A DNA stretch of 50,496 bases from contig CAILMF010000009.1 of the NCBI GenBank assembly GCA_903835235.1, positions 1-50,496 on the forward strand. The letters run 5' to 3'. How positions within the stretch are numbered: position 1 is the first letter of the stretch; each line of letters opens with the position of its first letter. The notes beneath the pieces are model-generated. The model had not been told where the DNA came from. It saw nothing but the letters and a program-made list of their open reading frames with translations, and did no database searches. Source of the DNA: an uncultured Rhodospirillales bacterium (GTDB taxonomy: Bacteria > Pseudomonadota > Alphaproteobacteria > Acetobacterales > Acetobacteraceae). Positions 9,042-31,846 of the stretch are shown here, piece by piece. The position numbers and the translations under genes are program-made.

Positions 9042-9060
9042 GCCTCGCAGAATGCAGGCG
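9042..9060. promoter_or_regulatory. Shared inverted-repeat site, copy A
   Basis: GCCTCGC-AGAAT-GCAGGCG, matching the pattern GCCTTGC-N5-GCAAGGC seen in four other polysaccharide intergenic regions. It lies between two divergent genes and next to sigma-54-like elements. Confidence 0.6.
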
Positions 9061-9071
9061 CGGCGATTGCT
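9056..9071 (+). promoter_or_regulatory. Possible sigma-54-like element for the GH123-like gene
   Basis: AGGCGCG-GCGA-TTGCT keeps GG-N10-GC, but the -12 GC is only about 13 bases from the ATG, which would give an almost leaderless message. A weaker alternative (TGGCGGA-CCCA-CTGCA, 9007-9022) is better placed. Confidence 0.3.
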
Positions 9072-9082
9072 TCACCGGGCGC

Positions 9083-11521
9083 ATGAGAAACATGCTGCTG
9101 CTTGCCCTGCTGCTGCCCTTCGCGGCCCTGGCGCAACCGCTGCCGGGCTTCGCGCCTGGCCCCACGCCGCTGCCGCTGGAGGCGGCGCAGGACCTCTCGG
9201 CCGCCGCCGAGATTTTGTTGGTGGGTGAAAACCCCAACCCCGGCCCGGTGGTGCTGGTGCTGCGGATCGATGACGGGCAGTCCAGCAGCTACGCCTCGCG
9301 CTTCGAGCTGGAGCGCACCGTGCTGCCGGGGCCTTTCCGCATCCGTACCGCGCCGACGGCGTGGCGGACCCCTGCCGGACGCTTCCTGGACCGAACGGGC
9401 ATCCGGCGCATCATCATCAATACCGGCTATGGCGCGGCGCCGGTGCGGATTGTTGGCCTGGAGGCGGTACGACCGCTGGCCTTCCCACCCGGCGTGGCGG
9501 CCCTGCAATTCGGGCCGCTGGAGGCGCCGACCTTCCCCGGCTTCACCCGCGTGGCGCCTGATGACCCGCGGATCGTCAATGGCGGCAGCCCGCGCGTGCC
9601 CATCCGCCGCAGCGGCGAGCACCCGCTGATCGGCGCCGGCCAGCGCGGGGTGGAGCGCTTCGAACTGCCCTGGCCCGACGGGCGCTGGACGGTTTCGCTG
9701 TGGGTGGAGGATATCGGCGACTGGGAATACGTGCCGCACCCGCTGCAACGCCGCATCCGGGTGAATGGCGAGACGTTCCTGGAATACCTGCACACGCCGG
9801 AAAGCTGGCTGCGCCAGCTCTACTTCGCCGGCCGCGAGACCGAGGATGTCAGCGACCCCTGGACCGCCTTCGCCGCCCGCCGCGGCGGCCTGCTGACGCG
9901 GGAGGTGGAGGTGCGCGACGGCCGCCTGGTGGTGGAGCTGGCCGGCAACAATATCGAGAGCACCTTCCTGGCCGCCCTGCTGGTGGAACCGGCCGAAGGC
10001 GCGCGCGCCGTGCTGGAGCAGGTGCAGGCGGCGCGGCGGGAGCGGGTGCTGGAAGCCTGGCCCGTCGTTGGCCCGCGCCGCGGCACGCCGCCGCCCCGCC
10101 TGACGCTGGGCCTGCTGCCGGAAGGCCAGCCCGCCCGGGCGGATTGGCGCCCCGATGCCACCCCGGCCGCGCCGCCGGTCATCGCGCCGGGCACGCTGGG
10201 CTGGGTGGACATGATGGTGCTCTCGCCCGCCGATGACGCGGCGCCCGAGGTGGCGCTGACCCCGCCCAGCCGCAACGGCCGCAGCCTGCCGGCCGAGTTG
10301 CGCTGGGGCCATTGGCGCTACACCCGGCACAACCCCAGCGAGGGCCAGTTGACGCTGGAGGCCGAGCAACTGCGCGGCGAGGCCGACCGGCTGACCTTGC
10401 AGGCCGGCCTGCCGCGCCGCCTGAACATCCTGGTGCGGGTGCCGGAGGATGCGCCGCCGGGGCCGTATCGCGGCCGGGTGCAGGTGGCGGCGCTCGGCAC
10501 CAGGCTGGAGCTGGCCTATGCGGTGGAGGTGCCGCCGGTGACGCTGCCGCACGCCGACCGGCCGGTGGGCGTCTATCACGACATTCCGCCCTACGCGCAT
10601 TGGTTCCCCGAGTTGGAGGCGATGACCAGGCGCGGCATGGCCTGCGAGCTTGCCACCATGCGCGGCCTTGGCCTTACCGGCCTTTCCCCCGCCCTGGCCA
10701 CCCCGGCGCCGGGCCAGGTGCAGGACATCGCCGAGGACCTGGCCGTGGCCCGCAATGCCGGCTTCGGCATGGATGTGCTGGCCTACACGCCGATCAAGCG
10801 CATGCTGGAGTATCGCGGGATCGACGCGCTGGGCCGCACGCTGGAACAGGTGCGGGATGCCTTCGCCGCCCGCGGCCTGGCGGCGCCGGTCTGGAGCATT
10901 GCCGACGAGCCCGGCAACCCCGGCAGCACCCCGGCCGACCTGGCCAACCTGCGCGCAGTAATTCGCGCGGCCATGCCGGGCGCCCGGGTGGCGGGGCAGC
11001 TGAACCGCCCGGCGGACCGGCAGCTGCTGGGGCTGTTCGACGTGGTGCTGCTGAATGACGGCTTCGGCGTGCAGGCCCCCGAGGTGGCGCGCTGGCGCCG
11101 CACCGGCCCCACGCCCTGGCTGTACAACATGCCGGACGTGGAAGCCGCCGCCGGCTTCTTCCTGTGGCGCAGCAATGCCGCCGGCTACCTGCAATGGCAT
11201 GCCCGGGCGATCGGCGCCGACCCCTTCGACCCCACCGATTCCGGCGAGGCGGATGTGCAGCTCTACCCGTTGCAGCCGGAACCCTGCCACGCCGTGCCGG
11301 ACCTGGACCTGGGGCTGCTGCGCATCGCCCGGGGCGTGGGCGACCTGCGCTGGATGCTGTGGCTGGAGGCCAAGGCGGCGCAGGTTCCGGCGGCCCGCGC
11401 ACTGCTGATGGAGTTGCGCCAGGAAATCCCGGATAACTGGCGCCGCGGGGACCGCCCCGCCTTCGATGCCGTCGCCTGGCGCTCTCGCCTGGCGGCGCTG
11501 GCGAGGAGCCTGGACCGGTAG
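9083..11521 (+). CDS. Secreted GH123/DUF4091-like protein of the polysaccharide locus
   Basis: 812 residues from ATG 9083 (MRNMLLLALLLPFAALAQ signal peptide; a second ATG is at 9092). The N-terminal half looks like beta-sandwich domains, including RRIRVNGETFLEYLHTPESW and IPDN-type carbohydrate-binding features. The second half resembles GH123/DUF4091 proteins: VEVPPVTLPHADRPVGVYHD, a TIM-barrel-like region with WSIADEPGNPG, and the C-terminal GYLQWHARAIGADPF, VQLYPLQP and LRIARGVGDLRWMLWLE, the usual end of that family. It may trim or modify the exported polymer in the periplasm. It is 5 bases before the Wzy-type gene and probably co-transcribed. The family call is moderate and substrate and activity are unknown. 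Confidence 0.62.
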   Translation: MRNMLLLALLLPFAALAQPLPGFAPGPTPLPLEAAQDLSAAAEILLVGENPNPGPVVLVLRIDDGQSSSYASRFELERTVLPGPFRIRTAPTAWRTPAGRFLDRTGIRRIIINTGYGAAPVRIVGLEAVRPLAFPPGVAALQFGPLEAPTFPGFTRVAPDDPRIVNGGSPRVPIRRSGEHPLIGAGQRGVERFELPWPDGRWTVSLWVEDIGDWEYVPHPLQRRIRVNGETFLEYLHTPESWLRQLYFAGRETEDVSDPWTAFAARRGGLLTREVEVRDGRLVVELAGNNIESTFLAALLVEPAEGARAVLEQVQAARRERVLEAWPVVGPRRGTPPPRLTLGLLPEGQPARADWRPDATPAAPPVIAPGTLGWVDMMVLSPADDAAPEVALTPPSRNGRSLPAELRWGHWRYTRHNPSEGQLTLEAEQLRGEADRLTLQAGLPRRLNILVRVPEDAPPGPYRGRVQVAALGTRLELAYAVEVPPVTLPHADRPVGVYHDIPPYAHWFPELEAMTRRGMACELATMRGLGLTGLSPALATPAPGQVQDIAEDLAVARNAGFGMDVLAYTPIKRMLEYRGIDALGRTLEQVRDAFAARGLAAPVWSIADEPGNPGSTPADLANLRAVIRAAMPGARVAGQLNRPADRQLLGLFDVVLLNDGFGVQAPEVARWRRTGPTPWLYNMPDVEAAAGFFLWRSNAAGYLQWHARAIGADPFDPTDSGEADVQLYPLQPEPCHAVPDLDLGLLRIARGVGDLRWMLWLEAKAAQVPAARALLMELRQEIPDNWRRGDRPAFDAVAWRSRLAALARSLDR

Positions 11522-11526
11522 CGCTG

Positions 11527-12981: not shown

Positions 12982-13985
12982 CAGCCCCAGCCGGCCAGCA
13001 GGGAAAGCCCGGGTACCAGTGCTACTGCCCAGGGTACCGGCACCACGCCCGCCAGCCCATGCACCACGGCCAGCAGCACCGGCACGTGCACCAGGTACAG
13101 GCTGTAGCTGACCCGCCCCAGCCACAGCAGCGGCGGCGCCTCCAGCAGGCCCGGCCGGGTGAGCGCCAGCGCCATCATCAGCCCGGCGCCAAGCGTGCAG
13201 GTGGCATCGATCGACGGCATCTGTAGCGCCACCGCCGGCAGCCACAGGGCGACAAAGGCCCAGCGCGGCAGCCGCAGCAAGGCCGCGCGAATGGCGGCCA
13301 GCCGCAGCGCCAGCACGCAGCCCAGCAGGAAGCAGTTGGCGAAGTGCAGCGTGGTCAGCAGCGCCGCCAGCCCGCCTTCACCATGGAAGGGCGCCAGCGG
13401 CAGCCCGGCGGCGCGCATCGCGGCATCCACCGCCAGTTGGAAGGCCAGCATGCCCGGCACCAGCCAGCGCAGCGGCAGCGCCGCCAGCCCCAGCAGCAAC
13501 GGGAACACCAGGGAGAGCCGGAGTTCATACACCAGGCTCCACATCACCACGTTAAGCCGGGTGCCCTCCACGTCGCCCAGCATCAGCAGGTGGCGCGCCA
13601 GCACCGCCGGGGTCAGTGGCATGGCCCAGGGGTCGCCGTTGAACCAGCCGCTGGCATCGGCCACCGGCTGCGGGTTCAGCAACAGAAGCAGCCCGGCGGA
13701 GAGCAGCACGGAGAAGGCGAAGGGCAGCCAGATCCGCGCCACCCGCCGCAGCGCAAAGCCGCGCCAGCCGGGTTCCCGCTGCAAGGCCAGCGCCAGCACG
13801 AAGCCGGACAGCACGAAGAACAGCACCACCGCGGGGCGCGCCCCGACGATGGGCTTGAGTGGCGTGTACAGCAGCGCGGCGCGGATGCCATCGGCCAGCG
13901 CGCCATCCAGCGTCTGCCAGCAATGGTACAGCACCACCATTAGCGCGGCGATCCCGCGCAGGGCGTCCAGCGCCTTCAGCCGCAT
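12894..13985 (-). CDS. Acyltransferase 3 family membrane protein
   Basis: 363 residues, ATG at 13985. It opens with the family signature LDALRGIAALMVVLYHCWQ containing the conserved His, and VVLFFVLSGFVLALAL follows. About ten hydrophobic segments fill the rest. Such proteins transfer acetyl or other acyl groups to sugars of surface polymers across the inner membrane. Its start overlaps the end of the GT2 gene by 10 bases, so the two are coupled, and the pair probably decorates and builds one sugar unit. Its 3' end overlaps the Wzy-type gene on the other strand. A much longer upstream frame is only antisense of GT2 coding DNA. Confidence 0.88.
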   Translation of the reverse strand: MRLKALDALRGIAALMVVLYHCWQTLDGALADGIRAALLYTPLKPIVGARPAVVLFFVLSGFVLALALQREPGWRGFALRRVARIWLPFAFSVLLSAGLLLLLNPQPVADASGWFNGDPWAMPLTPAVLARHLLMLGDVEGTRLNVVMWSLVYELRLSLVFPLLLGLAALPLRWLVPGMLAFQLAVDAAMRAAGLPLAPFHGEGGLAALLTTLHFANCFLLGCVLALRLAAIRAALLRLPRWAFVALWLPAVALQMPSIDATCTLGAGLMMALALTRPGLLEAPPLLWLGRVSYSLYLVHVPVLLAVVHGLAGVVPVPWAVALVPGLSLLAGWGCYLAVEAPTAAWARRLGASSTTTPKVAVA

Positions 13986-14917
13986 GGCACCGCCTCCGCC
14001 AGCATGGCGTGGGCCGGCACCACCTGCCGGCAGGCCACCAGCTCGGCCTTGCCGGGGCTGCGGGGCTGGCGCAGGCGCTGCACCGCCAGGCGGGAGAAGC
14101 GGTCCGCCGGAGGCGGGTTGCCGGCCAGCCAGTCCAGCAGCATCGCATCGGCGTAGCGTGGCAGGTTGGCGAAGCCGTCGCGGTAGATCGCCTCGCGCAG
14201 CGCCGCATCCTCCAGCCGGCCGCGCGCCTGCTGGATGCGACGGTTCCAGTAGCGCCGGAGGTCGGCCGGGCGCAGCGGCGAAAGCGGGCGGACCTGCCAG
14301 CTGGCGCCCGCCGCCACGGCGATGCGCGCGGGGTCCCAAGGGTTCGCGGCGGCGTCCAGGTCATGCATCACCATGCTGCCCAGCAGCCCGTCGCCGCGAT
14401 ACAGCCCCACCGGCAGCCGCAGCCCGCGCGCGGCGATGCGCTCGACGAAATCGCCGCGCAGCGCGTGCAGCGAGCCATGCAGCGCCGGGTTGGCCAGCAT
14501 GGCATCGCGCGTAGCCGCAGCGCTGCGGCCGCAGCTGGGCACCGCGGCGGCGGCATTGGCGGAGGGCGTCGCCTCCAGCGCCGCGCGCAGCGCCGCCAGC
14601 GCGCCGGGCTGCACCCGTGCATAGGCGTCCAGGAAGGCGTAGTGGTGCGCGGCGGGCCGCACCGCGTGGATGAACTGGTTCCAGGCATTGGATTTGTCGG
14701 CAAAGCCGATCTGCCACACCTGCACCGGCACGGGCGCGCGGGCTGCCAGCGCCGCGGCCACGCCGCCGGAGCCATCGGTGCAGCCGTTCAGCATCAGCGT
14801 CACCGTGGCCCGTCGGCCACCCAACCCGGCGTAGATCGCCTCCAGGCAGGGCGCCAGGCTGGCGGCCTCGTTGCGGGCAAAGACGGCGATGCTCCAGTCG
14901 AAGGCGGGCGTTGGCAT
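13976..14917 (-). CDS. Family 2 glycosyltransferase
   Basis: 313 residues from the ATG at 14917 (MPTPAFDWSIAVFARNEAASLAPCLEAI). An in-frame Met at 15058 would put the sigma-54-like promoter inside the gene, so the shorter start is chosen. GT-A features are the N-terminal nucleotide-binding strand (IAVFARNEA), VTLMLNGCTDGS and HYAFLDAYARVQPGAL, where the metal site is LDAYAR rather than a strict DXD. The C-terminal part has an Arg-rich region (RRYWNRRIQQARGRLED). It is probably cytoplasmic or peripheral and adds one sugar during repeat-unit synthesis. It forms a unit with the acyltransferase. Confidence 0.82.
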   Translation of the reverse strand: MPTPAFDWSIAVFARNEAASLAPCLEAIYAGLGGRRATVTLMLNGCTDGSGGVAAALAARAPVPVQVWQIGFADKSNAWNQFIHAVRPAAHHYAFLDAYARVQPGALAALRAALEATPSANAAAAVPSCGRSAAATRDAMLANPALHGSLHALRGDFVERIAARGLRLPVGLYRGDGLLGSMVMHDLDAAANPWDPARIAVAAGASWQVRPLSPLRPADLRRYWNRRIQQARGRLEDAALREAIYRDGFANLPRYADAMLLDWLAGNPPPADRFSRLAVQRLRQPRSPGKAELVACRQVVPAHAMLAEAVPCG

Positions 14918-14947: not shown

Positions 14948-14963
14948 CGCAAGCCGCGTTCCA
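14948..14963 (-). promoter_or_regulatory. Sigma-54-like promoter for the GT2-acyltransferase unit
   Basis: Leftward TGGAACG-CGGC-TTGCG: GG-N10-GC spacing and one change from TGGCACG-N4-TTGC. The -12 GC is 32 bases before the ATG at 14917. Confidence 0.6.
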
Positions 14964-15059
14964 TGCGGGCTGCGAGGCGAAATGCGATCACCCCGCAGCA
15001 TGTCCCGGCCTCGCCGGATCGTGCGCCGGGCGGCGCGTGTCGCGGCAGCACCGCGCATC

Positions 15060-15077
15060 GCCTCGCAATGCGCGAGG
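15060..15077. promoter_or_regulatory. Shared inverted-repeat site, copy B
   Basis: GCCTCGC-AATGC-GCGAGG: a perfect 6-bp inverted repeat (CCTCGC/GCGAGG) with a 5-base spacer, in the divergent region between the GT2 and epimerase genes. Confidence 0.6.
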
Positions 15078-15114: not shown

Positions 15115-15130
15115 CGGCACGCCGCTTGGA
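15115..15130 (+). promoter_or_regulatory. Sigma-54-like element for the epimerase gene (imperfect -12)
   Basis: CGGCACG-CCGC-TTGGA. The -24 box matches well and the -12 has GG in place of GC. The -12 position is about 38 bases before ATG 15167, the same spacing as at the other units. Confidence 0.4.
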
Positions 15131-18079: not shown

Positions 18080-19294
18080 TCAGCGCGCCCGGCAGGCGGC
18101 GAAGGCGGCACCGAGCCGTTCAGCCTGCGCCGCCAGGGTGAAGCCGCGCAGCAGATGCGCCCGGCCATTCTGTCCCAGCATCCGGCGTTCCGGCTCATGC
18201 AGCGTGGCCAGCCAGGCCAGCGCCTCGGCCAGTGCGGCGGCATCCCCGGGTGGCACCAGGCGGCCGGTCTCCGGCGTGACCATTTCCTTCACGCCCATCA
18301 GGGCGGAGCCGACCACCGGCAGTTCCATGCCCATTGCTTCCTTCACCACCATCGGGCCGGTATCGCGGTCGCCATTGGCGCAGATCACGTAGGGCGCGAC
18401 AAAGCCCAGATAATGCGGCCCGTGCTCGGCGATCCATGCGCTGTCGCGCGCACCGAGGAAGTGGACGCTGTCGCTGACGCCCAGCGTCAGTGCCTGGGCG
18501 CGCAACTCGTCCAGCAGCGGGCCGGTGCCCACAGCGTCCACCACCGGGCGGCTCGCCTCCGGCAGCAGCGCCAGGGCGCTCAGCAGCACCGGGTAGCCCT
18601 TCTGTTCGGTCAGCCGGCCGATGGCGAGCAGGCGGCGGTTGCGTCGCACCATGCCGGCCGGGCGCCTGAAGCGGTCAGGGTCGGTCCCGCAGCGGACCAC
18701 CTTCACCAGGGCCGTCGGTGCCAGGCGCCGGAAGTCCACGGCCATGTCGTCGCAGGTTGCAATCGCCAGGTCGGCGGCGTCCAGCTTGGCGGCCAGGTCG
18801 GTCGGCGTGCCGTACACGTCGTAGCCATGGCCGATGAAGGAAACAGTGGTGTCGGCCAGCCGGGCGGCGACGATGGCGGTGGCCGCCGCAACATGCGCGA
18901 AATGCGCGTGGATATGCGTGGCGCCCACCCGCCGCGCCGCCTGTGCCACCCGGGCGCCGGCCAGTAGCAGGGAAGCGGCGCCGATGCTGCGCTGGCGCAG
19001 CGCGAAGGCCATGGCGCGCGCCAGCCCGGCCGGATGCTTCGCCACTGCCGCCACGGCGCCGGCGGCATGCTGCGCACCCAGCGCAAGCGTCTCCGCGCGG
19101 AACGCCTCGTCCTGCGGCTGGCAGGGGCCGTGAAAGGGGGCCAGGGCCAGCGGCGTTACCCTGTGGCCGGCAGCCCGCATGGCGCGGATCTCGTTGCTGA
19201 CGAAGGTCTCCGACAGCACCGGGAAGGCCGCCATCACATACAGCACGTTCAGGCTGCGGGTGGGCAGGGTGAGAAACGGGTTGCCGTCTGGCAT
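18080..19294 (-). CDS. Family 4 glycosyltransferase
   Basis: 404 residues from the ATG at 19294, with AAGGA about 10 bases upstream. An upstream in-frame GTG/ATG region to 19399 would swallow the promoter and is rejected. GT-B fold: the N-terminal domain has LYVMAAFPVLSETFVSNEIRAM and HIHAHFAHVAAATA. The C-terminal domain has LLAIGRLTEQKGYPVLLSAL and VDAVGTGPLLDEL. The donor-site region reads DTGPMVVKEAMGMELPVVGS, where GPMVVKEA stands for the usual E-x7-E motif with the first Glu replaced. It is a cytoplasmic retaining transferase coupled to the flippase. Confidence 0.88.
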   Translation of the reverse strand: MPDGNPFLTLPTRSLNVLYVMAAFPVLSETFVSNEIRAMRAAGHRVTPLALAPFHGPCQPQDEAFRAETLALGAQHAAGAVAAVAKHPAGLARAMAFALRQRSIGAASLLLAGARVAQAARRVGATHIHAHFAHVAAATAIVAARLADTTVSFIGHGYDVYGTPTDLAAKLDAADLAIATCDDMAVDFRRLAPTALVKVVRCGTDPDRFRRPAGMVRRNRRLLAIGRLTEQKGYPVLLSALALLPEASRPVVDAVGTGPLLDELRAQALTLGVSDSVHFLGARDSAWIAEHGPHYLGFVAPYVICANGDRDTGPMVVKEAMGMELPVVGSALMGVKEMVTPETGRLVPPGDAAALAEALAWLATLHEPERRMLGQNGRAHLLRGFTLAAQAERLGAAFAACRAR

Positions 19295-19359: not shown

Positions 19360-19378
19360 GCCTTGCATTCCGCAAGGC
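19360..19378. promoter_or_regulatory. Shared inverted-repeat site, copy C (best match)
   Basis: GCCTTGC-ATTCC-GCAAGGC: a perfect 7-bp inverted repeat with a 5-base spacer, between the divergent GT4 and GT2 genes. Confidence 0.7.
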
Positions 19379-19390
19379 ACGCCGGTTGCG
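19375..19390 (+). promoter_or_regulatory. Possible sigma-54-like element for the GT2 gene
   Basis: AGGCACG-CCGG-TTGCG is a near-consensus match, but the -12 GC is only about 13 bases before ATG 19402. The same odd placement occurs at 9056-9071. Confidence 0.35.
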
Positions 19391-19401
19391 TTTGCCCATG
19401 C

Positions 19402-21117: not shown

Positions 21118-21759
21118 CTACTGGCCGCGGCCGGTCACCATCACCTGCACCGTCGTCAGCGCCACGCGGGCGTCCACCGCCAGCCAGCCGCGCAGGCTGG
21201 TCAGGCTCAGCGCATAGGCGTGGTCCCAGCCGGCCTTCTTGCGCACGTCGTCCAGGCAGGTGTCGTAGCCCTGGTACACCTGAGCCATGCCGGTGATGCC
21301 TGGCCGCAGCCCCGCGGTGCGCTCGGCGAAGAACGGCACCGCCTTTTCCAGCTTGCCGTAGAAGCCCGGGCGCTCTGGCCGCGGGCCGACGATGCTCATC
21401 TCGCCTTTCAGCACGTTGAACAGCTGCGGTAGCTCGTCCAGCCGGGTCTTACGCAGGAAATTGCCCACGCGGGTGATGCGTGGGTCGCGCTTGGCGGCCC
21501 AGACTGCGCCGGACTTCGCCTCGGCGTCCTGGCGCATGCTGCGGAACTTGTACATCACGAACAGCTCGGTGCGGTCCGGCCGGATGCGGCCAACGCGCAA
21601 CTGGCAGAACACCGCGGGGCCGCGGCTGTCCAGCTTCACCGCCAGCGCGATCAGCGGGAACAGCGGCAGGGTGATGGCCAGCGCGAGCAGGGCCACGAGG
21701 ATGTCGAAGCCGCGCTTGGCGTAGGCCACATGCAGCGGCAGGTGAAGGTGATCCGGCAT
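21118..21759 (-). CDS. Undecaprenyl-phosphate sugar transferase (priming enzyme)
   Basis: 213 residues, a small PglC-type bacterial sugar transferase. One membrane-entering helix (KRGFDILVALLALAITLPLFPLIALAV) precedes the catalytic core, with KLDSRGPAVFCQLRVG, YKFRSMRQDAE, RITRVGNFLRKTRLDELPQL and NVLKGEMSIVGPRPERP. It transfers a sugar phosphate from a UDP-sugar to undecaprenyl phosphate, starting repeat-unit synthesis at the inner-membrane face. It is the last gene of the leftward operon 27911-21118, 16 bases after the preceding GT2 gene, and is followed by a hairpin. The C-terminal region is usual for the small class without the Wbap-type N-terminal domains. Confidence 0.94.
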   Translation of the reverse strand: MPDHLHLPLHVAYAKRGFDILVALLALAITLPLFPLIALAVKLDSRGPAVFCQLRVGRIRPDRTELFVMYKFRSMRQDAEAKSGAVWAAKRDPRITRVGNFLRKTRLDELPQLFNVLKGEMSIVGPRPERPGFYGKLEKAVPFFAERTAGLRPGITGMAQVYQGYDTCLDDVRKKAGWDHAYALSLTSLRGWLAVDARVALTTVQVMVTGRGQ

Positions 21760-21775: not shown

Positions 21776-22927
21776 TCAGGCGGCGGCTGGCGTCATGGCG
21801 CGGCGCCAGGGTTGGCTGGGACGCAACAGCAGGTAGCGTGCCACGCCCAATGCGCTGGCCAGGTGGCCCGAGGCCAGATAACGCAGCACCGCCAGCGGTT
21901 TTGGCGCCGCCGCGCCGCAGAATGCGCCCAGCGCGGCCAGCGCCAGGCCCAATGCCTCGCAGGCTGCGAGAACGGCGAAGAACCCGCTGGCCGGCGCCAG
22001 CAGGAAGCTGCCCAGCACGGCGAAGCCGAGCAGGAAGGGCATCACCACCCGCAGCGCCTTGCCGGAAGCGAATGCCAGGGCCACGCCGCCCTGGCGCGGA
22101 TGCAGCAGCGCCCGCAGCCGCCACAGCTGCTGCGCATTGCCGGCCGCGATCCGCCGCCGCCGCCGGGCTTCCAGCGCGGGGTCGGAGACCTCGGCCTCCA
22201 CCACGCGGATGCGTTCGTCATAGGCCAGGCGCCAGCCGGCCAGGTGCAGGCGCAGCGGCAGGATGAAGTCGTCGTTGATGGTATCGGCCTCCAGCGGCTG
22301 CCAGGCCTGGCGCCGGAAGCACCAGAAGGCGCCATGCAGGCCGAGCGGCGCGCCGAGTGCGGCCTCGCCCCGCTTCACCGCCACCTGGTAGCGCCAGTAG
22401 GTCGCCTCGCCGGCGGAACCGGGGCGGGAGAGCAGATAGGTGCCGCCCACAGCGCCCAGCTTGGCGTCGGCGAAATGCGCGGTGGCCAGCCGCAGCGCAT
22501 CCGCCGGCAGCATGGCCGAGACATCGCTGAGCGCCACGATCCCTTCGGGGATGGCGGCGATGGTCTCGTTCAGCACCGCCAGCTTGCCGCGGTTGGGGCT
22601 CAGGTCGCGGATCTCGGCGTGCAGGTCGAGGCCGGCCAGGGCTTCGCGTGCCAGGGCCACGGTGGCATCGGTGCAGCCGTCGCAGGCCACCACCACGCGC
22701 AGTTTTTCCCGCGGGTAGTCCAGCGCGGCCAGGTTGCGCAGCTTGGCGGCGATGAAGGCGGCCTCGTTGTGCGCGGGCATCACCACGGTCACCAGGGGCA
22801 GCGCGGCCTCGGCCAGCGGCGCCGGTGCCGCGGGCACGGAGCGCGCGGCATGGCGCAGCAGCAGCGGCCAGCCGGCATGGTGCCAGGCGGCAAGACCAAG
22901 CGCGGAAAGCGTGGCGGTGGCGAGCAT
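21776..22927 (-). CDS. Membrane family 2 glycosyltransferase (synthase-like)
   Basis: 383 residues from the ATG at 22927, which overlaps the preceding stop (TGATG). One N-terminal hydrophobic stretch (LGLAAWHHAGWPLLL) precedes a GT2 core: LVTVVMPAHNEAAFIAAKLRNL, VVVACDGCTDATVALA, IVALSDVSAML (metal site), GAVGGTYLLSRPGS, TINDDFILPLRL, and RRRRIAAGNAQQLWRL in the place of the QxxRW motif. Two to four C-terminal membrane segments follow (LGFAVLGSFLLAPASGFFAVLAACEAL). The build resembles processive or chain-extending transferases such as those with hyaluronan/cellulose-synthase folds. It works in the same operon as the priming enzyme and the GT4. Confidence 0.87.
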   Translation of the reverse strand: MLATATLSALGLAAWHHAGWPLLLRHAARSVPAAPAPLAEAALPLVTVVMPAHNEAAFIAAKLRNLAALDYPREKLRVVVACDGCTDATVALAREALAGLDLHAEIRDLSPNRGKLAVLNETIAAIPEGIVALSDVSAMLPADALRLATAHFADAKLGAVGGTYLLSRPGSAGEATYWRYQVAVKRGEAALGAPLGLHGAFWCFRRQAWQPLEADTINDDFILPLRLHLAGWRLAYDERIRVVEAEVSDPALEARRRRRIAAGNAQQLWRLRALLHPRQGGVALAFASGKALRVVMPFLLGFAVLGSFLLAPASGFFAVLAACEALGLALAALGAFCGAAAPKPLAVLRYLASGHLASALGVARYLLLRPSQPWRRAMTPAAA

Positions 22928-24000
22928 CAGGCGGCCTCCTCGGCAAGCGTCAGGTAGGCCCCGGCGGCGGCGGCCAGGCTGGCATGGGCCAGCACGAAGC
23001 CACGCGGGTCGCCGCCGCGGTTTGCCAGCAACGACTGCATGCCCTGTGCCAGGGCGGCCGGGTCCTCGCTGGCAACCAGCCTTGCAGAATGCGGGTCGCA
23101 GGCCGCGGGCACGCCACCGACCCGTGCCGCCACCACGCCCAGCCCGGAGGCTTGCGCTTCCAGCAGCGCCAGCGGCAGGCCCTCGTTGCGGGACGGCAGG
23201 CAATAGCCGTCCAGCGCCCGGTAGAAGCCGGCCATGTCCTGCACCAGGCCCAGGAACCGCACGCGGTCCGCCACGCCCAGCGCCTGCGCCTGGTCGCGCA
23301 GGGCGGCGGCCTGGCTGCCATTGCCGGCCACCGCCAGCAGCGCGTCGCCCGGCAGGTGCGCCATGGCGGCAATGGCCAGGTCCACGCCCTTCACCGGCTC
23401 CAGCCGCGCCGCCACGCCCAGGATGGCGCGGCCCGGCGGCAGGCCCAGCGCGGCCCGGGCGGCGGCCTGGTCGCCCGGCGTGAAGCGCGCGGTGTCCACG
23501 CCATTCAGCACCACCTTCGGCAGCAGCCCGATCGCGGCCTGCACGGCTTCCGCCACATGCGGCGCATCCGCCACCAGCACGGGCCTGGCCAGGCGCAGCG
23601 CCAGCATCACCACCGCGCGGCGCTTCGCGTCGTTCAGGTGCCAGGCGTCGTGTTCGGTGTGCAGCCGGCGCTTCACCCCGGCCAGCCGCGCCGCGGGGCC
23701 GGCATAAAGCAGCGGGCCGACGTGATGGGTATGCACCGCCCAAGGGCGCAGCCGGCGAAACAGCGCCACCAGTCGCGGCAGCAGCGCCGCATCCAGCCCC
23801 GGCCGCTTGCCCAGGAACAGCAGCTGGTCGCGGTGCTGGGCCAGCCGCGGCCAGGCGGCGATCGCGGTCTCGGCATCGCCTTCCAACGAGAGCACCAGCG
23901 TGGGGCGCTGGCCGGCCTGGGCGCGGGCCAGTTCCAGCGCCATCACTTCCAGCCCGCCGGGCGCCAGGTGCTGCACCACATGGATGAGGGGGTTCTGCAT
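22927..24000 (-). CDS. Family 4 glycosyltransferase
   Basis: 357 residues from the ATG at 24000 (MQNPLIHVVQHLAPGGLEVM). A longer upstream frame is antisense-type reading of the chain-length gene and is rejected. GT-B motifs are APGGLEVMALELARA, AVHTHHVGPLLYAGPAARLAG, VVLNGVDTARFTPGD, GVAARLEPVKGVDLAIAAMA, and the donor-site motif NEGLPLALLEAQASGLGVVA with both Glu residues of E-x7-E. It is a cytoplasmic retaining transferase. It sits 11 bases after the chain-length gene and is coupled to the next GT2 by a stop/start overlap. An internal copy of the shared inverted repeat lies at 23079-23097. Confidence 0.92.
   Translation of the reverse strand: MQNPLIHVVQHLAPGGLEVMALELARAQAGQRPTLVLSLEGDAETAIAAWPRLAQHRDQLLFLGKRPGLDAALLPRLVALFRRLRPWAVHTHHVGPLLYAGPAARLAGVKRRLHTEHDAWHLNDAKRRAVVMLALRLARPVLVADAPHVAEAVQAAIGLLPKVVLNGVDTARFTPGDQAAARAALGLPPGRAILGVAARLEPVKGVDLAIAAMAHLPGDALLAVAGNGSQAAALRDQAQALGVADRVRFLGLVQDMAGFYRALDGYCLPSRNEGLPLALLEAQASGLGVVAARVGGVPAACDPHSARLVASEDPAALAQGMQSLLANRGGDPRGFVLAHASLAAAAGAYLTLAEEAA
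23079..23097. promoter_or_regulatory. Intragenic copy of the shared inverted-repeat site
   Basis: GCCTTGC-AGAAT-GCGGGTC matches copy D (27971-27989) over 17 consecutive bases but lies inside GT4 coding sequence, about 150 bases before the GT2 start. No sigma-54-like element was found next to it, so it may be chance or a decoy. Confidence 0.3.
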
Positions 24001-27200: not shown

Positions 27201-27911
27201 CTAGACCTCCAGCACGCGGATGGCGCGGCAGGGGTTGCCGGCGGCCAGCACCATGGAGGGCAGGCTTTTGGTCACCACGCTGCCGGCGCCCACCACGGTA
27301 CCGCGGCCGATGGTGACCCCGGCCAGCACGGTGACGCCGGTGCCCAGCCAGACATCGTCTTCCAGCACGATGTCACCGGCCTGGTCGTCGCCGCAGGCCA
27401 GGCCGGCGGCGCGGGCGCTGGGGTCCAGGGGATGGCCGGGATAGCCGGCCAGGAAGTTGCGCCCGGCCAGCCGCACGTTGTGGCCCAGCACCACGCGCGT
27501 GCCCACCGCAATGGTGGTTTGCCAGCCGATATCCACGTTGTCGCCCACCTCCAGCAGCGGTTGCGGCCGGCTGGTCGGGCGCGCCGACAGGGTGGAGGCG
27601 GCGGAGAGCCGCACATCGCGGCCGAGGCGCAGCCGCAGCGGGCCGCTGATGAAGGGCATGCCGCCTTCCAGCCGCAGGCCGGGCGCCGGGGTTTCGCAGC
27701 GCGAGAGGAACAGCGGGGTCCAGTACAGCGCCCGCGCCGCCTGGGAGAGCGCGCCGCGCAGCCCGGTATGCAGCGCGTAGAGCGCGCGATGCAGCGGCCG
27801 CACCATGGGCATGCGGGCACCGCGCACCGCCTTGACACCGCGCCAGGCCAGCCGGGCCAGCGGGGTTTCCTGCGCCTTGATATGTTGCCTGAGGGCCAGC
27901 ACCGCGCTCAT
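27201..27911 (-). CDS. Hexapeptide-repeat (LbH) acyltransferase
   Basis: 236 residues from the ATG at 27911, with GGAG about 10 bases upstream. The frame is open further upstream, but the promoter element lies there. The N-terminal 80 residues are helical (WRGVKAVRGARMPMVRPLHRAL). The rest shows left-handed beta-helix hexads: VGDNVDIGWQTTIAVGTRVVLGHNVRLAG, then IVLEDDVWLGTGVTVLAGVTIGRGTVVGAG and SVVTKSLPSMVLAAGNPCRAI, the usual C-terminus of maltose/serine-type O-acetyltransferases. It would acetylate or acylate a sugar in the cytoplasm. It is the first gene of the operon running to 21118. Confidence 0.85.
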   Translation of the reverse strand: MSAVLALRQHIKAQETPLARLAWRGVKAVRGARMPMVRPLHRALYALHTGLRGALSQAARALYWTPLFLSRCETPAPGLRLEGGMPFISGPLRLRLGRDVRLSAASTLSARPTSRPQPLLEVGDNVDIGWQTTIAVGTRVVLGHNVRLAGRNFLAGYPGHPLDPSARAAGLACGDDQAGDIVLEDDVWLGTGVTVLAGVTIGRGTVVGAGSVVTKSLPSMVLAAGNPCRAIRVLEV

Positions 27912-27946: not shown

Positions 27947-27962
27947 GGCAGCCACCATGCCA
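27947..27962 (-). promoter_or_regulatory. Sigma-54-like promoter for the seven-gene operon
   Basis: Leftward TGGCATG-GTGG-CTGCC with GG-N10-GC spacing. The -12 GC is 37 bases before the ATG at 27911. The -24 box is identical to that at 19335-19341. Confidence 0.58.
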
Positions 27963-27970
27963 GGCAGACC

Positions 27971-27989
27971 GCCTTGCAGAATGCGGGGC
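27971..27989. promoter_or_regulatory. Shared inverted-repeat site, copy D
   Basis: GCCTTGC-AGAAT-GCGGGGC, 9 bases upstream of the sigma-54-like element for the operon. Confidence 0.6.
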
Positions 27990-28056: not shown

Positions 28057-28155
28057 TCTGATCGTCGTTGGTAGAATCACCGGCGGCGTGAATCAGCCGC
28101 TCGAACAATCGCTTGAAGCCTGTCAGGCGCTGCTGTCTGCGCCTGGCAGACTCTA
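28057..28155 (+). repeat. Interspersed repeat, copy 2
   Basis: Alignable with 16528-16664 (TGATCGTCG, GAATCACCGGCGGCGTGAATC, GCCGCTC, CTGTCAGGCGCT, GTCTGCGCCTGGCAGACTC). Its left part has a partial tandem relative at about 27996-28030 (GTGATCGTCGCAGG, GACGTGAAC). TGTCAGGCGC and GCGCCTGGCA can pair as a stem next to the stop codon of the leftward P-loop gene. Confidence 0.65.
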
Positions 28156-28842
28156 GGCCCGCATGCCCAGCACCGTGGACCGCCGCAGCCGGTTGCGGGC
28201 TTTTTCCACCAGGCCAGGCGCCCAGCGCGCCAGCCGGGTCAACTCGCGCTCCATCTCGGCGCGGAGCGAGGGATTCTCCCGGTCGTTCAGCACTACGCCG
28301 GAAAGGTGGCCGCCGGCGCGCAACAGCTTGTCCTGCGCCTGGCGCAGCTTGTCGGCCTTGGTGCGGCCGGCCAGCACCACCAGCACGGTGGTGGCGGCCT
28401 TCGCGGCCACGGTCAGCCCACCCGGACCATTGGGCTGCGCGGCCGCCAGCAGTGGCGGCGTGTCCAGCACCACCATGGACCAGTCGCGCTGCCATTCCGC
28501 CAGCTTCCAGGCCAGGAAGCCCGGTTCCTTCCAGTTGCCGCCGGCATCGGCCGGCACGCTGACCGCGCCGAAGCCATCCGCCCCGATCCGCAGCGGCACA
28601 CCTGGCTCCAGCTGCTGCCCCAGCCGCGTCGCCAGCATCGGCCGACGCGGGCTGATCTCGGCCAGCAGCGTGGTCTCGCCGGCCAGCACCGCGCGGCGGG
28701 CCAGCGCCGCGGCCAGGGTGGAGGCGCCTTCCTCTGGCTCCGCCGAGGTGACGCAGACGCAGCGCTGGCCGCCCTGCACCAGGCTGCGCCACAGCGCCTC
28801 CACCTCGTCGGTCATTGCTTCGGGCAGCAGGGTGTCGCGCAT
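28153..28842 (-). CDS. BY-kinase/ParA-like P-loop protein with degenerate ATP site
   Basis: 229 residues, related to the CpsD/Wzc tyrosine-kinase domain of polysaccharide loci. The P-loop region reads SAEPEEGASTLAAALA where active members have GEGKST, so the Walker A lysine is replaced by Ala (codon GCC). The Walker A' segment is LLAEISPRRP where LLIDxDxRRP is usual. Walker B (MVVLDTPPLL) is kept. There is no C-terminal tyrosine cluster; the tail is basic (KARNRLRRSTVLGMRA). It is probably not an active kinase but may still bind the chain-length protein. It is the last gene of the leftward STAS-lipoprotein-Wza operon, 2 bases after the export gene. Confidence 0.82.
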   Translation of the reverse strand: MRDTLLPEAMTDEVEALWRSLVQGGQRCVCVTSAEPEEGASTLAAALARRAVLAGETTLLAEISPRRPMLATRLGQQLEPGVPLRIGADGFGAVSVPADAGGNWKEPGFLAWKLAEWQRDWSMVVLDTPPLLAAAQPNGPGGLTVAAKAATTVLVVLAGRTKADKLRQAQDKLLRAGGHLSGVVLNDRENPSLRAEMERELTRLARWAPGLVEKARNRLRRSTVLGMRA

Positions 28843-28844
28843 GG

Positions 28845-30953
28845 TCAGAGCACCTTCAGGAACGCGAGGATGGAGACCGCGGTGACCACGTCGCGCAGGT
28901 TGTCGAAGAAGAAGCGCCAGTCGCTCTGCTGCTGGTTCGGCACGTAGATCGTGTCGCCCGGCCGAACCAGGGGCAGCATGGCGAAGTCGCCGGTACGGGC
29001 GAAGCGCGGCAGGTCGAAGGTGCGGGCCTCGTTGCCGCAGCAGCTAAGGTTGACCACCACGATACGGCTGTCCATCGCGCTGCCGGTGGGGCCACCGGAT
29101 TCGGCCAGCAGGTCCAGGATCGTCATGCCGGCGGCCAGCGGATAGCGGCCCGGCTTGCCCACCGCGCCGAGCACGCGCACCACGTTGTTGGGCGCAATCT
29201 CCAGCCAGTTGCGGTTGCGGTCGGGCACGAAGATCACGTCACCGGGCTGGAGCACGGGCAGCAGCGTGTCGTCGCCGGTCTCGAAATAGGCGGCCAGGTT
29301 CACCCGGGTCACGCGGTCACGCGACTCGCCGCGGTGGGAGACGCGGATGTTGATGATGTCGGCGGCCGGGGTCGGCCCATTGGCGGCGCTGACGATGTCG
29401 AGGAAGCTGAGGCCGCGTTCGAAGGCGTAGCGCCCCGGCGCCCCCACCGCGCCCATCACGTAGATGGAGTTGTCCGAACGCTGGCGCAGCCAGGTGGTGC
29501 GGCTGTCGCCTGGTGGGGCCGGCGGCAATTCGGCGATGGAGATGGTGTAGCCGGCGCGGATCACCGGCAGGCTGGAAAGCGAGCCACCCCTCTCCAGGAA
29601 GCGCTTCAGGTCGAAGCGCACCGCGGCGCCATTGCGGTCGCCCGAGAGGATCTGCACGTTGCTCATGTCGGCACGTTCGGTCGGGCCGCCGGTCTGGGCG
29701 ATCAGGTCCAGCAGGCTCATCTCGTCGCCCCATTCCAGCCGGCCCGGGCTTTTCACCGCGCCCAGCACCCTGACGGCACGGGAAGGCGGCGTGCGCAGCC
29801 AACTGGTGCTTTCCTGCTGCTGCTTTTCCGGGATGAAGATGGCGTCGCCCGGGCGCACTTCCGGCGGGCGGCCACCGGCCCCCTCGATGAAGCCGCCGAG
29901 GTCGAACATCTCCACCGTGCGGCCATCGGCGCGGATGATCTTCAGGTTGCGCGTATCGGCGAAGCGTGTCGGCCCGCCGGCATTGGCCAGGATGTCGAAG
30001 AAGCTGGTGCCGGCCCGCACCTCGAAGGCGCCGGCGCGCTGCACCTCGCCCATCATGTAGATCACGCTTGGCCCGGTGCGTACCGCCTCGGTCAGCGCCG
30101 GCACGAACAGCGTGGTGCCGGCCTCCAGTTCCGGGTTCAGGCTGGCATTGCCACTGTCCAGGTAGGTCTTCAGGTTGAACAGGCGTGGTTCAGTACCGTT
30201 GATGATCCGCACCTGTTCGGTGCCGGCGAAGCGCGTGACGCCGCCGGCGCGCAGCAGCGCGTCCATCACCGTCATGCCCTGCCGCCAGGAAAAGCTGCCG
30301 GCGTTGTTGACCTCGCCGAAGACGCGCACCGCCTGACGGTCATCGGTGTCGCCACTGGCGGCGCGGCCGTCGAAGGGCATTTCCACATTGCCGGTCTGCG
30401 GGCTAGCGGGCACGAACACCTCGTCCAGCGGGCGCAGCGCCGGCAGCGCGCGGGCATCGCCGGTATCCAGGTAGCGCTTGTAGTCGAAGGTGATCGGCTC
30501 CTGGCCCTGGCGGCGCAGTTGCAGCCGGTCCAGCTGGGCGCCGGCGCTCAACCCGCCGGCCGCGCCCAAGGCCTGCTGCACATTGGCGCCGGCCGGCAGT
30601 TCCACCGGGCCGGGCGTCTTCACGTAGCCGAACACCGAGAGCAGCAGCTTGCGTTCGCGCAGCACCAGGTTGAAGCGGGAGAGGTCGCGGTAGTGGCGGG
30701 AGAGGGCTTCGCGCACCCGGTCGCGCGCCTCGCGCAGGGTCAGCCCTGCAAGCTCGGCCGGGCCGGCCTCGGGCAGGTCTATCCGGCCCTCGCGGTCGAT
30801 CTGGAAGGTATTGGCGAAGGCGTCCTCGCCCGGCAGCACCACCTGCAGCACGTCGCCGACATTCAGCCGCGATTGCGTGCCCGGCTGCGCCGAGGCGGGG
30901 GCTACCGCCAGCAGCAGCAGGAAAGCCAGCAGCAGGCGCAGCGCATGGCGCAT
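28845..30953 (-). CDS. Wza-type polysaccharide export protein with six SLBB domains
   Basis: 702 residues. Signal peptide (residues 1-22, no lipobox Cys) and a Poly_export domain (LNVGDVLQVVLPGEDAFANTFQIDREGRIDLP) with the usual LTLREARDRVREALS helix. Six SLBB-type repeats follow at about 105-180, 208-285, 297-375, 393-473, 497-577 and 591-672. Each starts like VRVLGAVxxPGRY and ends with RPGDxIFVP. A hydrophobic C-terminal segment (VVTAVSILAFLKVL) closes it and may cross the outer membrane. Known Wza has two or three SLBB domains, so this periplasmic stalk is unusually long. It is coupled to the lipoprotein gene upstream (adjacent stop and start). Confidence 0.93.
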   Translation of the reverse strand: MRHALRLLLAFLLLLAVAPASAQPGTQSRLNVGDVLQVVLPGEDAFANTFQIDREGRIDLPEAGPAELAGLTLREARDRVREALSRHYRDLSRFNLVLRERKLLLSVFGYVKTPGPVELPAGANVQQALGAAGGLSAGAQLDRLQLRRQGQEPITFDYKRYLDTGDARALPALRPLDEVFVPASPQTGNVEMPFDGRAASGDTDDRQAVRVFGEVNNAGSFSWRQGMTVMDALLRAGGVTRFAGTEQVRIINGTEPRLFNLKTYLDSGNASLNPELEAGTTLFVPALTEAVRTGPSVIYMMGEVQRAGAFEVRAGTSFFDILANAGGPTRFADTRNLKIIRADGRTVEMFDLGGFIEGAGGRPPEVRPGDAIFIPEKQQQESTSWLRTPPSRAVRVLGAVKSPGRLEWGDEMSLLDLIAQTGGPTERADMSNVQILSGDRNGAAVRFDLKRFLERGGSLSSLPVIRAGYTISIAELPPAPPGDSRTTWLRQRSDNSIYVMGAVGAPGRYAFERGLSFLDIVSAANGPTPAADIINIRVSHRGESRDRVTRVNLAAYFETGDDTLLPVLQPGDVIFVPDRNRNWLEIAPNNVVRVLGAVGKPGRYPLAAGMTILDLLAESGGPTGSAMDSRIVVVNLSCCGNEARTFDLPRFARTGDFAMLPLVRPGDTIYVPNQQQSDWRFFFDNLRDVVTAVSILAFLKVL

Positions 30954-31337
30954 TCAGGAACACTCCGGGGCAAGGGTGGTGCCTGGCGGCAACTCGGCCG
31001 CCAGGGCGGCGGTGGTCAGCCGCAGTCGCTGCAGGCTGCGTTCGGCATCGGCCAGGAAGCCGGCGGCGAATTCGCGCTGCACCAGGGCGGCCTCATCCTG
31101 CGCCAACATGAAGCGCCCGGTCAGCACGCCGCGTTGGCCAGCCTGCTGGTGCAGGGTGTCCAGGCGATTGACCGCGCACCCCATGCGCAGGCGCAGGTTC
31201 TGCGCTGCGGAGGTGGGCTCGGCATCCTCGGCCAGTACAGGCGCGCGCCATTCCGCCATGCCGCCATATCCGCGTTCTGGCCAGTTGGTGCAGGCGGCCA
31301 GGGCGAGGAGCAGGGCCAGCAGGGCGGGCATTCTCAT
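30954..31337 (-). CDS. Small lipoprotein of the export operon, unknown function
   Basis: 127 residues with a lipobox (LLALLLALAAC, Cys at about 16). The mature part has a Trp/Tyr-rich start (TNWPERGYGGMAEW), then helices (RLRMGCAVNRLDTLHQQ, FAAGFLADAERSLQRLRLTTAALAAEL) and a C-terminal Cys. With the internal Cys this could form a disulfide. The start overlaps the STAS stop by 4 bases and the stop abuts the Wza start, so it is tightly coupled to export. No family was recognised. A pilotin-like or accessory role for the export protein is a guess. Confidence 0.6.
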   Translation of the reverse strand: MRMPALLALLLALAACTNWPERGYGGMAEWRAPVLAEDAEPTSAAQNLRLRMGCAVNRLDTLHQQAGQRGVLTGRFMLAQDEAALVQREFAAGFLADAERSLQRLRLTTAALAAELPPGTTLAPECS

Positions 31338-31693
31338 GCGGCGCGAGCCAGACCCAGCGCGGCGGCGAAGCCAAGCCGCCGCGGCGCTGGGCAGTTAATG
31401 CCAAGCGCGCGGTCCAGCCCCAACTTGCGCAGCAGGACCAGCGGCTGGCCTGCGGCGCCTTCGACCTTCAGGGTGTATCCCTGCGCCGCCAGGCGCTTGA
31501 AGGTGAAAGCCAGCGCGCCGATGCCGGAACCGTCCATGTAGGTCACCTCGCTGATGTCCAGGGCCAGGTCCCGATTCGCATCGGCCGCCAGCGCCTCCAA
31601 CAAGGGACGTAGCGCGAGAGCGCCCTCGGCATCCAGCGCGCCCGAGATGGCGAGGTGATTGCCGTGCGGGCCGGATTGGATGCTGCTGATCAT
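31334..31693 (-). CDS. STAS-domain protein
   Basis: 119 residues from the ATG at 31693 (AAAGG about 8 bases upstream). An upstream TTG at 31711 is rejected. It is a single STAS domain of the anti-sigma-antagonist type: HLAISGALDAEGALALRPLLEAL, LALDISEVTYMDGSGIGALAFTFKRL and LVLLRKLGLDRALGI. The usual phospho-site context DSSG is DGSG here, so one of the two Ser is missing. A partner kinase is not present in the window. It is the first gene of the export operon, under a nearly consensus sigma-54 element, which suggests a regulatory or membrane-association role in polysaccharide output. Confidence 0.82.
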   Translation of the reverse strand: MISSIQSGPHGNHLAISGALDAEGALALRPLLEALAADANRDLALDISEVTYMDGSGIGALAFTFKRLAAQGYTLKVEGAAGQPLVLLRKLGLDRALGINCPAPRRLGFAAALGLARAA

Positions 31694-31731
31694 GGGGATA
31701 CCTTTGCTCAATGTGTTGCTGAAGGGTTATC

Positions 31732-31747
31732 GGCAACACGCGTGCCA
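31732..31747 (-). promoter_or_regulatory. Consensus sigma-54 promoter for the export operon
   Basis: Leftward TGGCACG-CGTG-TTGCC, matching the full -24/-12 consensus TGGCACG-N4-TTGC. The -12 GC is 40 bases before the STAS ATG. It would drive STAS, lipoprotein, Wza-type and P-loop genes. Confidence 0.75.
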
Positions 31748-31827
31748 CTGCCGCCGGCGCGGTTTGCGGCCCCCAGCTTGCAAAACACAGGCAAAACCGG
31801 CCCAAGCCACCCACCGGGTCGCAGGCT

Positions 31828-31846
31828 GCGTTGCAGGATGCAAATA
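31828..31846. promoter_or_regulatory. Shared inverted-repeat site, copy E
   Basis: GCGTTGC-AGGAT-GCAAATA: the core TTGC-N5-GCAA is conserved and the outer bases differ. It lies 81 bases upstream of the sigma-54 element and just before the rightward GT4 start. Confidence 0.5.

Follow-up and report, generated by a model that had tools for sequence, protein, structure and literature searches.

Helically spaced palindromes beside sigma-54-type promoters point to a LuxO/SypG-type regulon in polysaccharide loci of Acetobacteraceae

The window analyzed here is an entire contig of 50,496 bases (CAILMF010000009.1) from the 5.97-Mb genome of an uncultured Rhodospirillales bacterium placed in the Acetobacteraceae. 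It carries a polysaccharide locus in which a short palindrome, TYGCANNNTGCRA, recurs next to elements resembling the −24/−12 promoters of sigma-54. We conclude that this palindrome is probably the upstream activating site of a bacterial enhancer-binding protein (bEBP) of the LuxO/SypG type, and that the locus belongs to a regulon of the LuxO/SypG type whose enhancer is promoter-proximal and phase-locked. The observations behind this conclusion are the motif, the promoter-like elements, a spacing rule, conservation in related loci, co-occurrence with a LuxO-like gene, gene neighborhood, and the match of a recognition helix.

Pairing of the palindrome with sigma-54-type promoters

An earlier note on this DNA described five copies of a 19-mer inverted repeat, GCCTTGC-N5-GCAAGGC, in the intergenic regions of the locus. 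The five places exist and lie between called genes; only the copy at 19360–19378 is perfect, and those at 9042, 15060, 27971, and 31828 depart from the pattern at 4, 3, 2, and 4 of 14 positions, respectively. With up to 3 mismatches allowed, 19 matches occur in the window where 12.0 are expected, and 3 of 100 dinucleotide shuffles reach 19; as written, the 19-mer thus barely exceeds chance, and it was rejected as the functional unit. The conserved unit is the inner 13-mer TYGCANNNTGCRA, with 0 mismatches of 10 at 31831–31843, which reads the perfect TTGCANNNTGCAA, and 1 each at 9045, 15063, 19363, and 27974. Four further sites had been overlooked, two of them at 14963–14975 and 31819–31831 and two within coding sequence (21957–21969 and 23082–23094). 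The genome contains 9 exact copies of TYGCANNNTGCRA, of which this contig has 3; the backwards control occurs 4 times. Exact TTGCN5GCAA is not clustered in the contig (2 of 80 places in the genome).

The −24/−12 elements were scored with a hand-set weight table built on the sigma-54 consensus (maximum 22.2, threshold 19). Nine motif–promoter pairs at 9–130 bp were found in the window, against a mean of 0.42 in shuffles (0 of 200 reached nine); five of them lie at 9–60 bp, where the mean in 200 shuffles was 0.20. The start-to-start distances are 11, 12, 24, 34, 43, 84, 96, 112, and 126 bp (Table 1). Sigma-54-like elements in the site regions, as reported before, are present, with the 15060 copy the weakest of the five, and the proximity of sites to the −24 box is borne out by the five shortest distances. 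The 15063 palindrome also stands ~52 bp (by eye) from a weak element at 15115–15130, in which TTGG replaces TTGC.

The arrangement recurs in relatives. The counterparts of site B in genomes G106 and G015 have 1 mismatch (9/10) and stand 12 bp from an identical promoter sequence. Site C is common to two divergent promoters, 12 bp from the plus-strand and 34 bp from the minus-strand element, and a similar divergent arrangement is present in G106 (34/12), G204 (33/12), and G165 (33/12). Each coding-sequence site precedes a promoter-like element that would serve the following gene; the 126-bp pair 21957/21843 recurs in G106 and G015 at the same distance, as does the pair 23082/23051 in G238 (locus L143). 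In G106, G015, and G238, a gene similar to that behind the 27974 site, judged by its first residues, has the pair at 24 bp; in G161 the distance is 22 bp. Ahead of the export operon, the distances are 96 bp in G015 and 98 and 86 bp in G106.

At both plus-strand promoters (9056–9083 and 19375–19402) the predicted transcription start falls 1 base ahead of the ATG, and in G106 the same 11-base gap separates the promoter element from the second gene (C1). The mRNAs at 9083 and 19402 may therefore be leaderless.

Spacing quantized by the DNA helix

Spacing was analyzed in 42 loci of the family (762 kb), comprising exopolysaccharide loci and LuxO-like neighborhoods. They contain 55 pairs at 9–60 bp, or 47 once near-duplicates are removed, and these 47 fall at 11–12 (4 pairs), 20–24 (13), 32–34 (10), 41–44 (15), and 53–56 bp (5), with none between. 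The best period is 10.35 bp, and 0 of 5000 uniform draws were equally periodic. With GC placed at −13/−12, the site centers lie at about −32, −42.5, −53, −62.5, and −73.5. The earlier note remarked that three of the sites lie near the −24 box for a classical enhancer, and this closeness turns out to be the key observation: the spacing is quantized by the helix.

A family-wide scan of 299 whole genomes with a uniform-gap pattern (distances 20–44), independent of the choice of loci, returned 35 matches in 23 genomes and 1 match for the backwards pattern. Thirty-two of the 35 fall in the phase clusters, none at 25–31 or 35–37, and 0 of 20,000 draws match this. Nine were already known; of the 26 new matches, 23 are in phase (P 2e-5).

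Controls on the motif gave the same picture. Sixty permuted half-sites yielded a mean of 1.7 pairs, with 59 of 60 at 4 or fewer, against 55 for the real motif; the sole one above 4 (YTGCA, 37 pairs) overlaps the motif. In 22 loci scanned at 8–200 bp, 3 pairs were obtained with the backwards motif and 57 with the real one; in 20 LuxO-like neighborhoods scanned at 8–140 bp, the numbers were 0 and 22. Chance in GC-rich DNA, which would suit the 19-mer in that it hardly exceeds expectation, was rejected: the shuffles, backwards and permuted motifs, phasing, and conservation all contradict it and leave it a negligible probability.

A conventional looping enhancer would place the functional sites at a distance, the close ones being auxiliary or reflecting tolerance for whole-turn loops. 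The literature describes LuxO-to-promoter loops of ~80–120 bp in ~11-bp steps for 61 Vibrio qrr enhancers (PMC4740811), and sites at 84–98 bp stand before the export operon here. Against this, of the 85 upstream pairs found up to 200 bp away in 41 of the 42 loci, 55 lie at 11–56 bp, as do 5 of the 9 in the window. We consider looping unlikely as the general explanation, because up to 56 bp is taken as too short for an ordinary loop and sigma-54 activators usually bind 100–150 bp upstream, with looping required (PMC7057263).

A LuxO-like protein as candidate regulator

A Pfam search of the genome gave six hits to the sigma-54-activator domain, of which two are weak and partial; the four full-length proteins are NtrC, NtrX, an FlbD-like, and a LuxO-like protein. 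The last (contig C29, 526 amino acids) combines a receiver, an AAA+ domain with the GAFTGA motif, a long Pro/Ala-rich linker, and a Fis-type helix-turn-helix (HTH), the Pfam domains of this architecture being those seen in the G020 homologue. Its top match by sequence in the PDB is LuxO (5ep0, 437 bits). We call it LuxO-like, not LuxO, because the curated LuxO cut-off is missed.

The recognition helix of the LuxO-like protein reads STVYRKL, that of the other three RNTLRKK, IRTLRNK, and RSALHRK; the LuxO type is present in only this one of the four. Eleven HTH residues of LuxO have been published as essential for DNA binding. In a manual, ungapped comparison, 6 are identical (L418, S423, Y426, R427, K428, L429) and 4 similar, the one different residue being G409, which is Q here. 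In print, the enhancer site of LuxO is TTGCAW3TGCAA, and the sites read by SypG of Vibrio fischeri overlap those of LuxO. The palindrome is of this described kind, although the earlier note knew of no described regulator with such a site. The broader idea that a single dimeric DNA-binding regulator serves the locus and is coupled to sigma-54 is supported.

An HPt match (C29:64588–64821) ends 20 bases ahead of the start of the LuxO-like gene, and an HPt gene immediately precedes the homologue in G020 and G165 as well. Of the 299 family genomes, 12 have the export protein (the G241 copy with an internal stop) and 77 the LuxO-like protein. The LuxO-like gene is present in 11 of the 12 export-positive genomes and in 66 of the 287 others (Fisher P 2e-6), and in 19 of the 23 pattern-bearing genomes against 58 of the 276 others (P 4e-9). 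In G020, G099, G165, and G241, 1.1–1.3 kb separate the LuxO-like gene from the export gene, and the two share one fetched locus in L012 and L013. In L077 (G020) and L079 (G165) the order is export gene, short gene, HPt, LuxO-like gene, phased promoter, GlmS-like gene; the short gene, searched in L079, had no Pfam match. The predicted targets of the paired promoters are glycosyltransferases, the STAS-export operon, GlmS-like proteins, and an acyltransferase.

That a different regulator reads the palindrome, be it a repressor or NtrC, NtrX, FlbD, or PrsR, appears improbable. Many regulators typically have palindromic sites close to promoters, and four pattern-bearing genomes have no LuxO-like hit; however, the site matches that of LuxO, whose recognition helix is found in only the LuxO-like protein among the four full-length activators, and the LuxO-like gene co-occurs with the pattern and, in six relatives, adjoins the export gene. 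NtrC and PrsR were rejected as readers, and with them the PrsR/NtrC-type regulator suggested earlier: the four activators score 337–372 bits (LuxO-like 372) with the PrsR model TIGR02915, below its cut-off of 502.6, the motif and spacer published for PEP-CTERM enhancers differ, and the recognition helices of the three activators other than the LuxO-like protein are not of the LuxO type.

Proposed mechanism

In this genome, the regulator would be the single LuxO-like response regulator on C29, encoded right after the HPt domain. Phosphate would pass from a hybrid sensor kinase through the HPt protein to the LuxO-like regulator, which, once activated, would bind TYGCANNNTGCRA as a dimer via its recognition helix; its AAA+ ring would then open the sigma-54 polymerase waiting at the adjoining −24/−12 promoter, and polysaccharide synthesis and export would be switched on. 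Because the site lies mostly 1, 2, 3, 4, or 5 whole turns from the promoter, with some centers near −105/−116, the activator would be held on one fixed DNA face, and one palindrome could serve two divergent promoters. An activator working from beside the polymerase on a fixed face is the simplest reading.

A more far-reaching version, to which we give a little less than an even chance, is a class of sigma-54 promoters with the enhancer fused to the promoter, in which a dimer 1–5 exact turns from −24 would act loop-free and a single palindrome would fire two divergent promoters. The dimer, on one face, would touch or nearly touch the polymerase, so that no DNA loop would be needed, and long, probably disordered linkers between the AAA+ and DNA-binding domains (up to ~90 residues) could replace the reach of looping. 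The distance from WPGNVR to the helix is ~90 residues in Vibrio LuxO (by hand), 91–160 in 34 readable proteins of the family, and 91–167 in 18 rows from outside it, some of which repeat the same protein; proteins with no readable PGNVR or helix, such as that of L063, were left out. Long linkers are not specific to the family, and the exchange of linker for loop is therefore a suggestion. Class II geometry is known from sigma-70 activators, and the fused-enhancer class, if true, would be its sigma-54 counterpart.

Alternatively, the same LuxO-like protein may bind throughout but act negatively at the 1-turn sites (center −32), where the bound dimer would overlap −24 and block the polymerase, and activate from 2 turns or more. 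In the 12-bp class, the palindrome and the 16-mer promoter element share one base, the last of the former and the first of the latter (19375 in the window; L066, L079, L141). On this reading, the 19363 palindrome would switch on one of its two divergent genes while restraining the other. Yet the 12-bp class keeps the helical phase of the other classes, which a simple block would not need, and both divergent genes at 19363 are glycosyltransferases of one locus; we regard the block as somewhat unlikely.

Several observations weigh against the proposed LuxO/SypG-type regulon and its phased enhancer. The LuxO-like protein reaches 575.4 bits with the LuxO model NF041946, below the cut-off of 800, although this is still its best NCBIfam model. 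Its gene is on a different contig from the window locus, and the 19 kb around it (L008) yielded no motif–promoter pair. In the genome-wide check of frequency and conservation proposed in the earlier note, motif plus promoter proved to be conserved in related loci, but only 3 of the 9 exact copies (31831, 21957, and C15:127895) have a promoter-like element downstream in the ranges scanned, where none was found for the copies at 18750 of this contig, C15:123495, or on C1, C21, C54, and C70. Four pattern-bearing genomes lack a LuxO-like hit (G238, 89% complete; G082, 73%; G056 and G131, complete), as does G167 (88% complete), which has the export gene and pairs; conversely, 58 LuxO-positive genomes of the family lack the strict pattern. 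In the wider scan of 41 loci, 30 more upstream pairs are spread over 64–199 bp and 20 pairs have the site downstream. Three scan distances (38, 39, 40) are out of phase, although the match at 38 has a second promoter-like element at 33. Some of the loci analyzed had also served to set the motif, the promoter weights, and the in-phase bins, the distance range of the scan was chosen after the first clusters had been seen, and its 35 matches are not all independent because some are orthologous promoters of related genomes. Binding, activation rather than repression, the order of the phosphorelay, and little or no looping at close sites are inferred from sequence. Finally, among 20 stretches fetched from outside the family (19 around LuxO-like hits, one, G501:C58, around a pattern match), only 3 hold pairs, 12 in all against 1 in the control, at 28, 29, 56, 57, 65, 66, 75, 83, 87, 88, 107, and 110 bp.

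A sample of 385 genomes from the class yielded the pattern in 5, two of which belong to the family studied here, and the LuxO-like protein in 73. With pairs in 3 of 20 stretches and at other distances, the site accompanies some LuxO-like genes elsewhere, whereas the close phased series was seen in this family only. In L167, L183, and L184, from outside the family, sites stand at 28–29, 56–57, and 87–88 bp among other distances, in roughly even steps of ~29 bp, too few for a conclusion.

Comparison with known systems

LuxU is the HPt partner of LuxO in Vibrio, and the HPt gene here is a likeness to that pair. The LuxO/qrr system further shares the palindrome TTGCAW3TGCAA, sigma-54, a receiver–AAA+–HTH protein with matching recognition helix, and the helical spacing step. 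It differs in that the Vibrio loops span ~80–120 bp, with tandem sites that drive small RNAs, whereas many sites here are at 11–56 bp and precede polysaccharide genes, and in that the NCBIfam LuxO cut-off is missed. In the window, the W3 center is not kept, the site near sigma-54 promoters being TYGCANNNTGCRA.

In the syp system of V. fischeri (rbd in V. vulnificus), a LuxO-like activator, SypG, controls a polysaccharide locus including a STAS protein; here, such control is predicted. In both the window and L013, the export promoter is followed first by a STAS gene, and six relatives have the activator gene next to the export gene (in this genome, it is on another contig). The resemblance to syp in gene content (activator, STAS gene, and polysaccharide export, with STAS tested in the window and L013) is strong. 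The reported SypG motif TTCTCANNNTGMDWN does not apply, as the first half-site here is TYGCA, and the hosts here are Alphaproteobacteria, judged by how their relatives are named.

PrsK/PrsR with its PEP-CTERM enhancer also ties a sigma-54 activator and an enhancer to exopolysaccharide, and several XrtA/PEP-CTERM-system models match in the window. Unlike here, PMC1569441 gives another motif (TTTACA appears there) and a mean spacer of 62.8 nt, and all four activators fall short of the PrsR model. Other sources drawn on were PMC9850573, PMC11443567, PMC10162802, PMC11407668, PMC4517449, and PMC12369376.

Helical tolerance of LuxO enhancers is prior art, since the qrr loops step by ~11 bp (PMC4740811). 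LuxO sites and helical steps at 80–120 bp are known from Vibrio; the placement at 1–5 turns is the new part. No natural enhancer series at one to five turns was found in the open-access literature, judged largely by the beginnings of abstracts, and an open-access search joining LuxO, Acetobacteraceae, and exopolysaccharide returned nothing.

A possible sensor branch

The genome has a second promoter of the phased LuxO type, at C15:127860 with a distance of 33 bp. Behind it lie a 127-amino-acid gene, a DctP-type periplasmic binding protein, and a 967-amino-acid hybrid histidine kinase with an Hpt match within its reading frame (L134:8385–12907, corresponding to C15:123385–127907). Promoter and gene order recur in G015 (L140). 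A binding protein with a hybrid kinase resembles LuxP–LuxQ; the kinase scores 234 bits with the LuxQ model over its catalytic part, against a cut-off of 1200, and TorS scores higher (303). We infer that the hybrid kinase feeds the LuxO-like protein, and the operon is a candidate sensor for the pathway, with feedback.

The polysaccharide locus and its surroundings

Profile searches of the window identified glycosyltransferases, a flippase-like protein, an export protein, homologues of a chain-length protein and a polyprenyl glycosylphosphotransferase, and others. The closest named relatives of the window are metagenome-assembled genomes labeled Acetobacteraceae, Rhodospirillales, and Roseococcus.

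Table 1. Sites, promoter-like elements, and genes of the polysaccharide locus in the window (scores out of 22.2; mismatches out of 10)
Feature	Position	Strand	Details
LuxO-type site A (9042 copy)	9045..9057		TCGCAGAATGCAG; 1 mismatch; 11 bp from promoter A start
Sigma-54-type promoter A	9056..9071	+	AGGCGCGGCGATTGCT; score 19.7; ATG 9083 at ~+1/+2
Target gene A	9083..11521	+	812 amino acids; signal-peptide-like start; no Pfam/NCBIfam family at E 0.001
Target gene B, GT2-like glycosyltransferase	13976..14917	-	PF00535 E 9e-5, slightly below gathering score
Sigma-54-type promoter B	14948..14963	-	TGGAACGCGGCTTGCG; score 19.5; 16-mer identical in G106 and G015
LuxO-type site B	14963..14975		TCGCAGCCCGCAT on minus strand; 2 mismatches
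LuxO-type palindrome (15060 copy), least certain role	15063..15075		1 mismatch; 112 bp from promoter B
Target gene C2, GT4-like glycosyltransferase	18080..19294	-	best model EpsE, below cut-off
Sigma-54-type promoter C2	19326..19341	-	TGGCATGGCCGGTGCA; score 19.7
LuxO-type site C (perfect copy of the 19-mer)	19363..19375		TTGCATTCCGCAA; 1 mismatch
Sigma-54-type promoter C1	19375..19390	+	AGGCACGCCGGTTGCG; score 20.5
Target gene C1, GT2-like glycosyltransferase	19402..20337	+	profile search
Target gene, polyprenyl glycosylphosphotransferase-like	21118..21759	-	TIGR03025 E 3e-71, below cut-off
Target gene, GT2 glycosyltransferase	21776..22927	-	PF13641 over gathering score
Sigma-54-type promoter within coding sequence	21828..21843	-	TGGCACGCTACCTGCT; score 21.2
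LuxO-type site within coding sequence	21957..21969		exact TYGCANNNTGCRA; 126 bp from promoter 21843
Sigma-54-type promoter within coding sequence	23036..23051	-	TGGCACAGGGCATGCA; score 20.2
LuxO-type site within GT4 coding sequence	23082..23094		1 mismatch; 43 bp from promoter 23051
Target gene, hexapeptide acyltransferase	27201..27911	-	PF00132 over gathering score
Sigma-54-type promoter	27947..27962	-	TGGCATGGTGGCTGCC; score 19.0, exactly at threshold
LuxO-type site (27971 copy)	27974..27986		1 mismatch; 24 bp from promoter 27962
Tyrosine-autokinase-like protein	28153..28842	-	TIGR01007 E 1e-9, below cut-off; no Pfam family
Polysaccharide export protein	28845..30953	-	TIGR03027 188.2 bits, cut-off 180
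Small putative lipoprotein	30954..31337	-	LAAC box read in translation; no Pfam family
STAS-domain protein, first gene after export promoter	31334..31693	-	PF13466/PF01740 over gathering score
Sigma-54-type promoter of export operon	31732..31747	-	TGGCACGCGTGTTGCC; score 21.5
Second, tandem LuxO-type site	31819..31831		84 bp from promoter 31747
Perfect LuxO-type site (31828 copy)	31831..31843		96 bp from promoter 31747

Other features were noted around these genes. At 5033–6624, near the polysaccharide locus, a weak XrtR exosortase-like match (below cut-off) adjoins an Npun_F0296-type exosortase-dependent surface protein (above cut-off). An HNH endonuclease-like gene (20344–21033) lies amid the polysaccharide genes. 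Dipeptide/nickel-type ABC transporter genes occupy 33448–38518, with a sigma-54-like element ahead at 33401 and an apparent half-site upstream of it. At 1290–3010 and 17–427 there are two adjoining serine-recombinase-like pieces and the end of an IS3-type transposase at the contig edge.

Significance

Textbook sigma-54 activation takes place from a distance, via DNA looping. The natural promoters of this one family form a spacing series (1, 2, 3, 4, 5, and ~8–9 turns) with one activator and one promoter type, which makes it directly testable how near to the promoter a bEBP can be positioned and on which face of the DNA. The polysaccharide loci of Acetobacteraceae-type bacteria gain a named candidate regulator, its site, and a candidate sensor pathway, and the finding points to a LuxO/SypG kind of polysaccharide control outside Vibrio.

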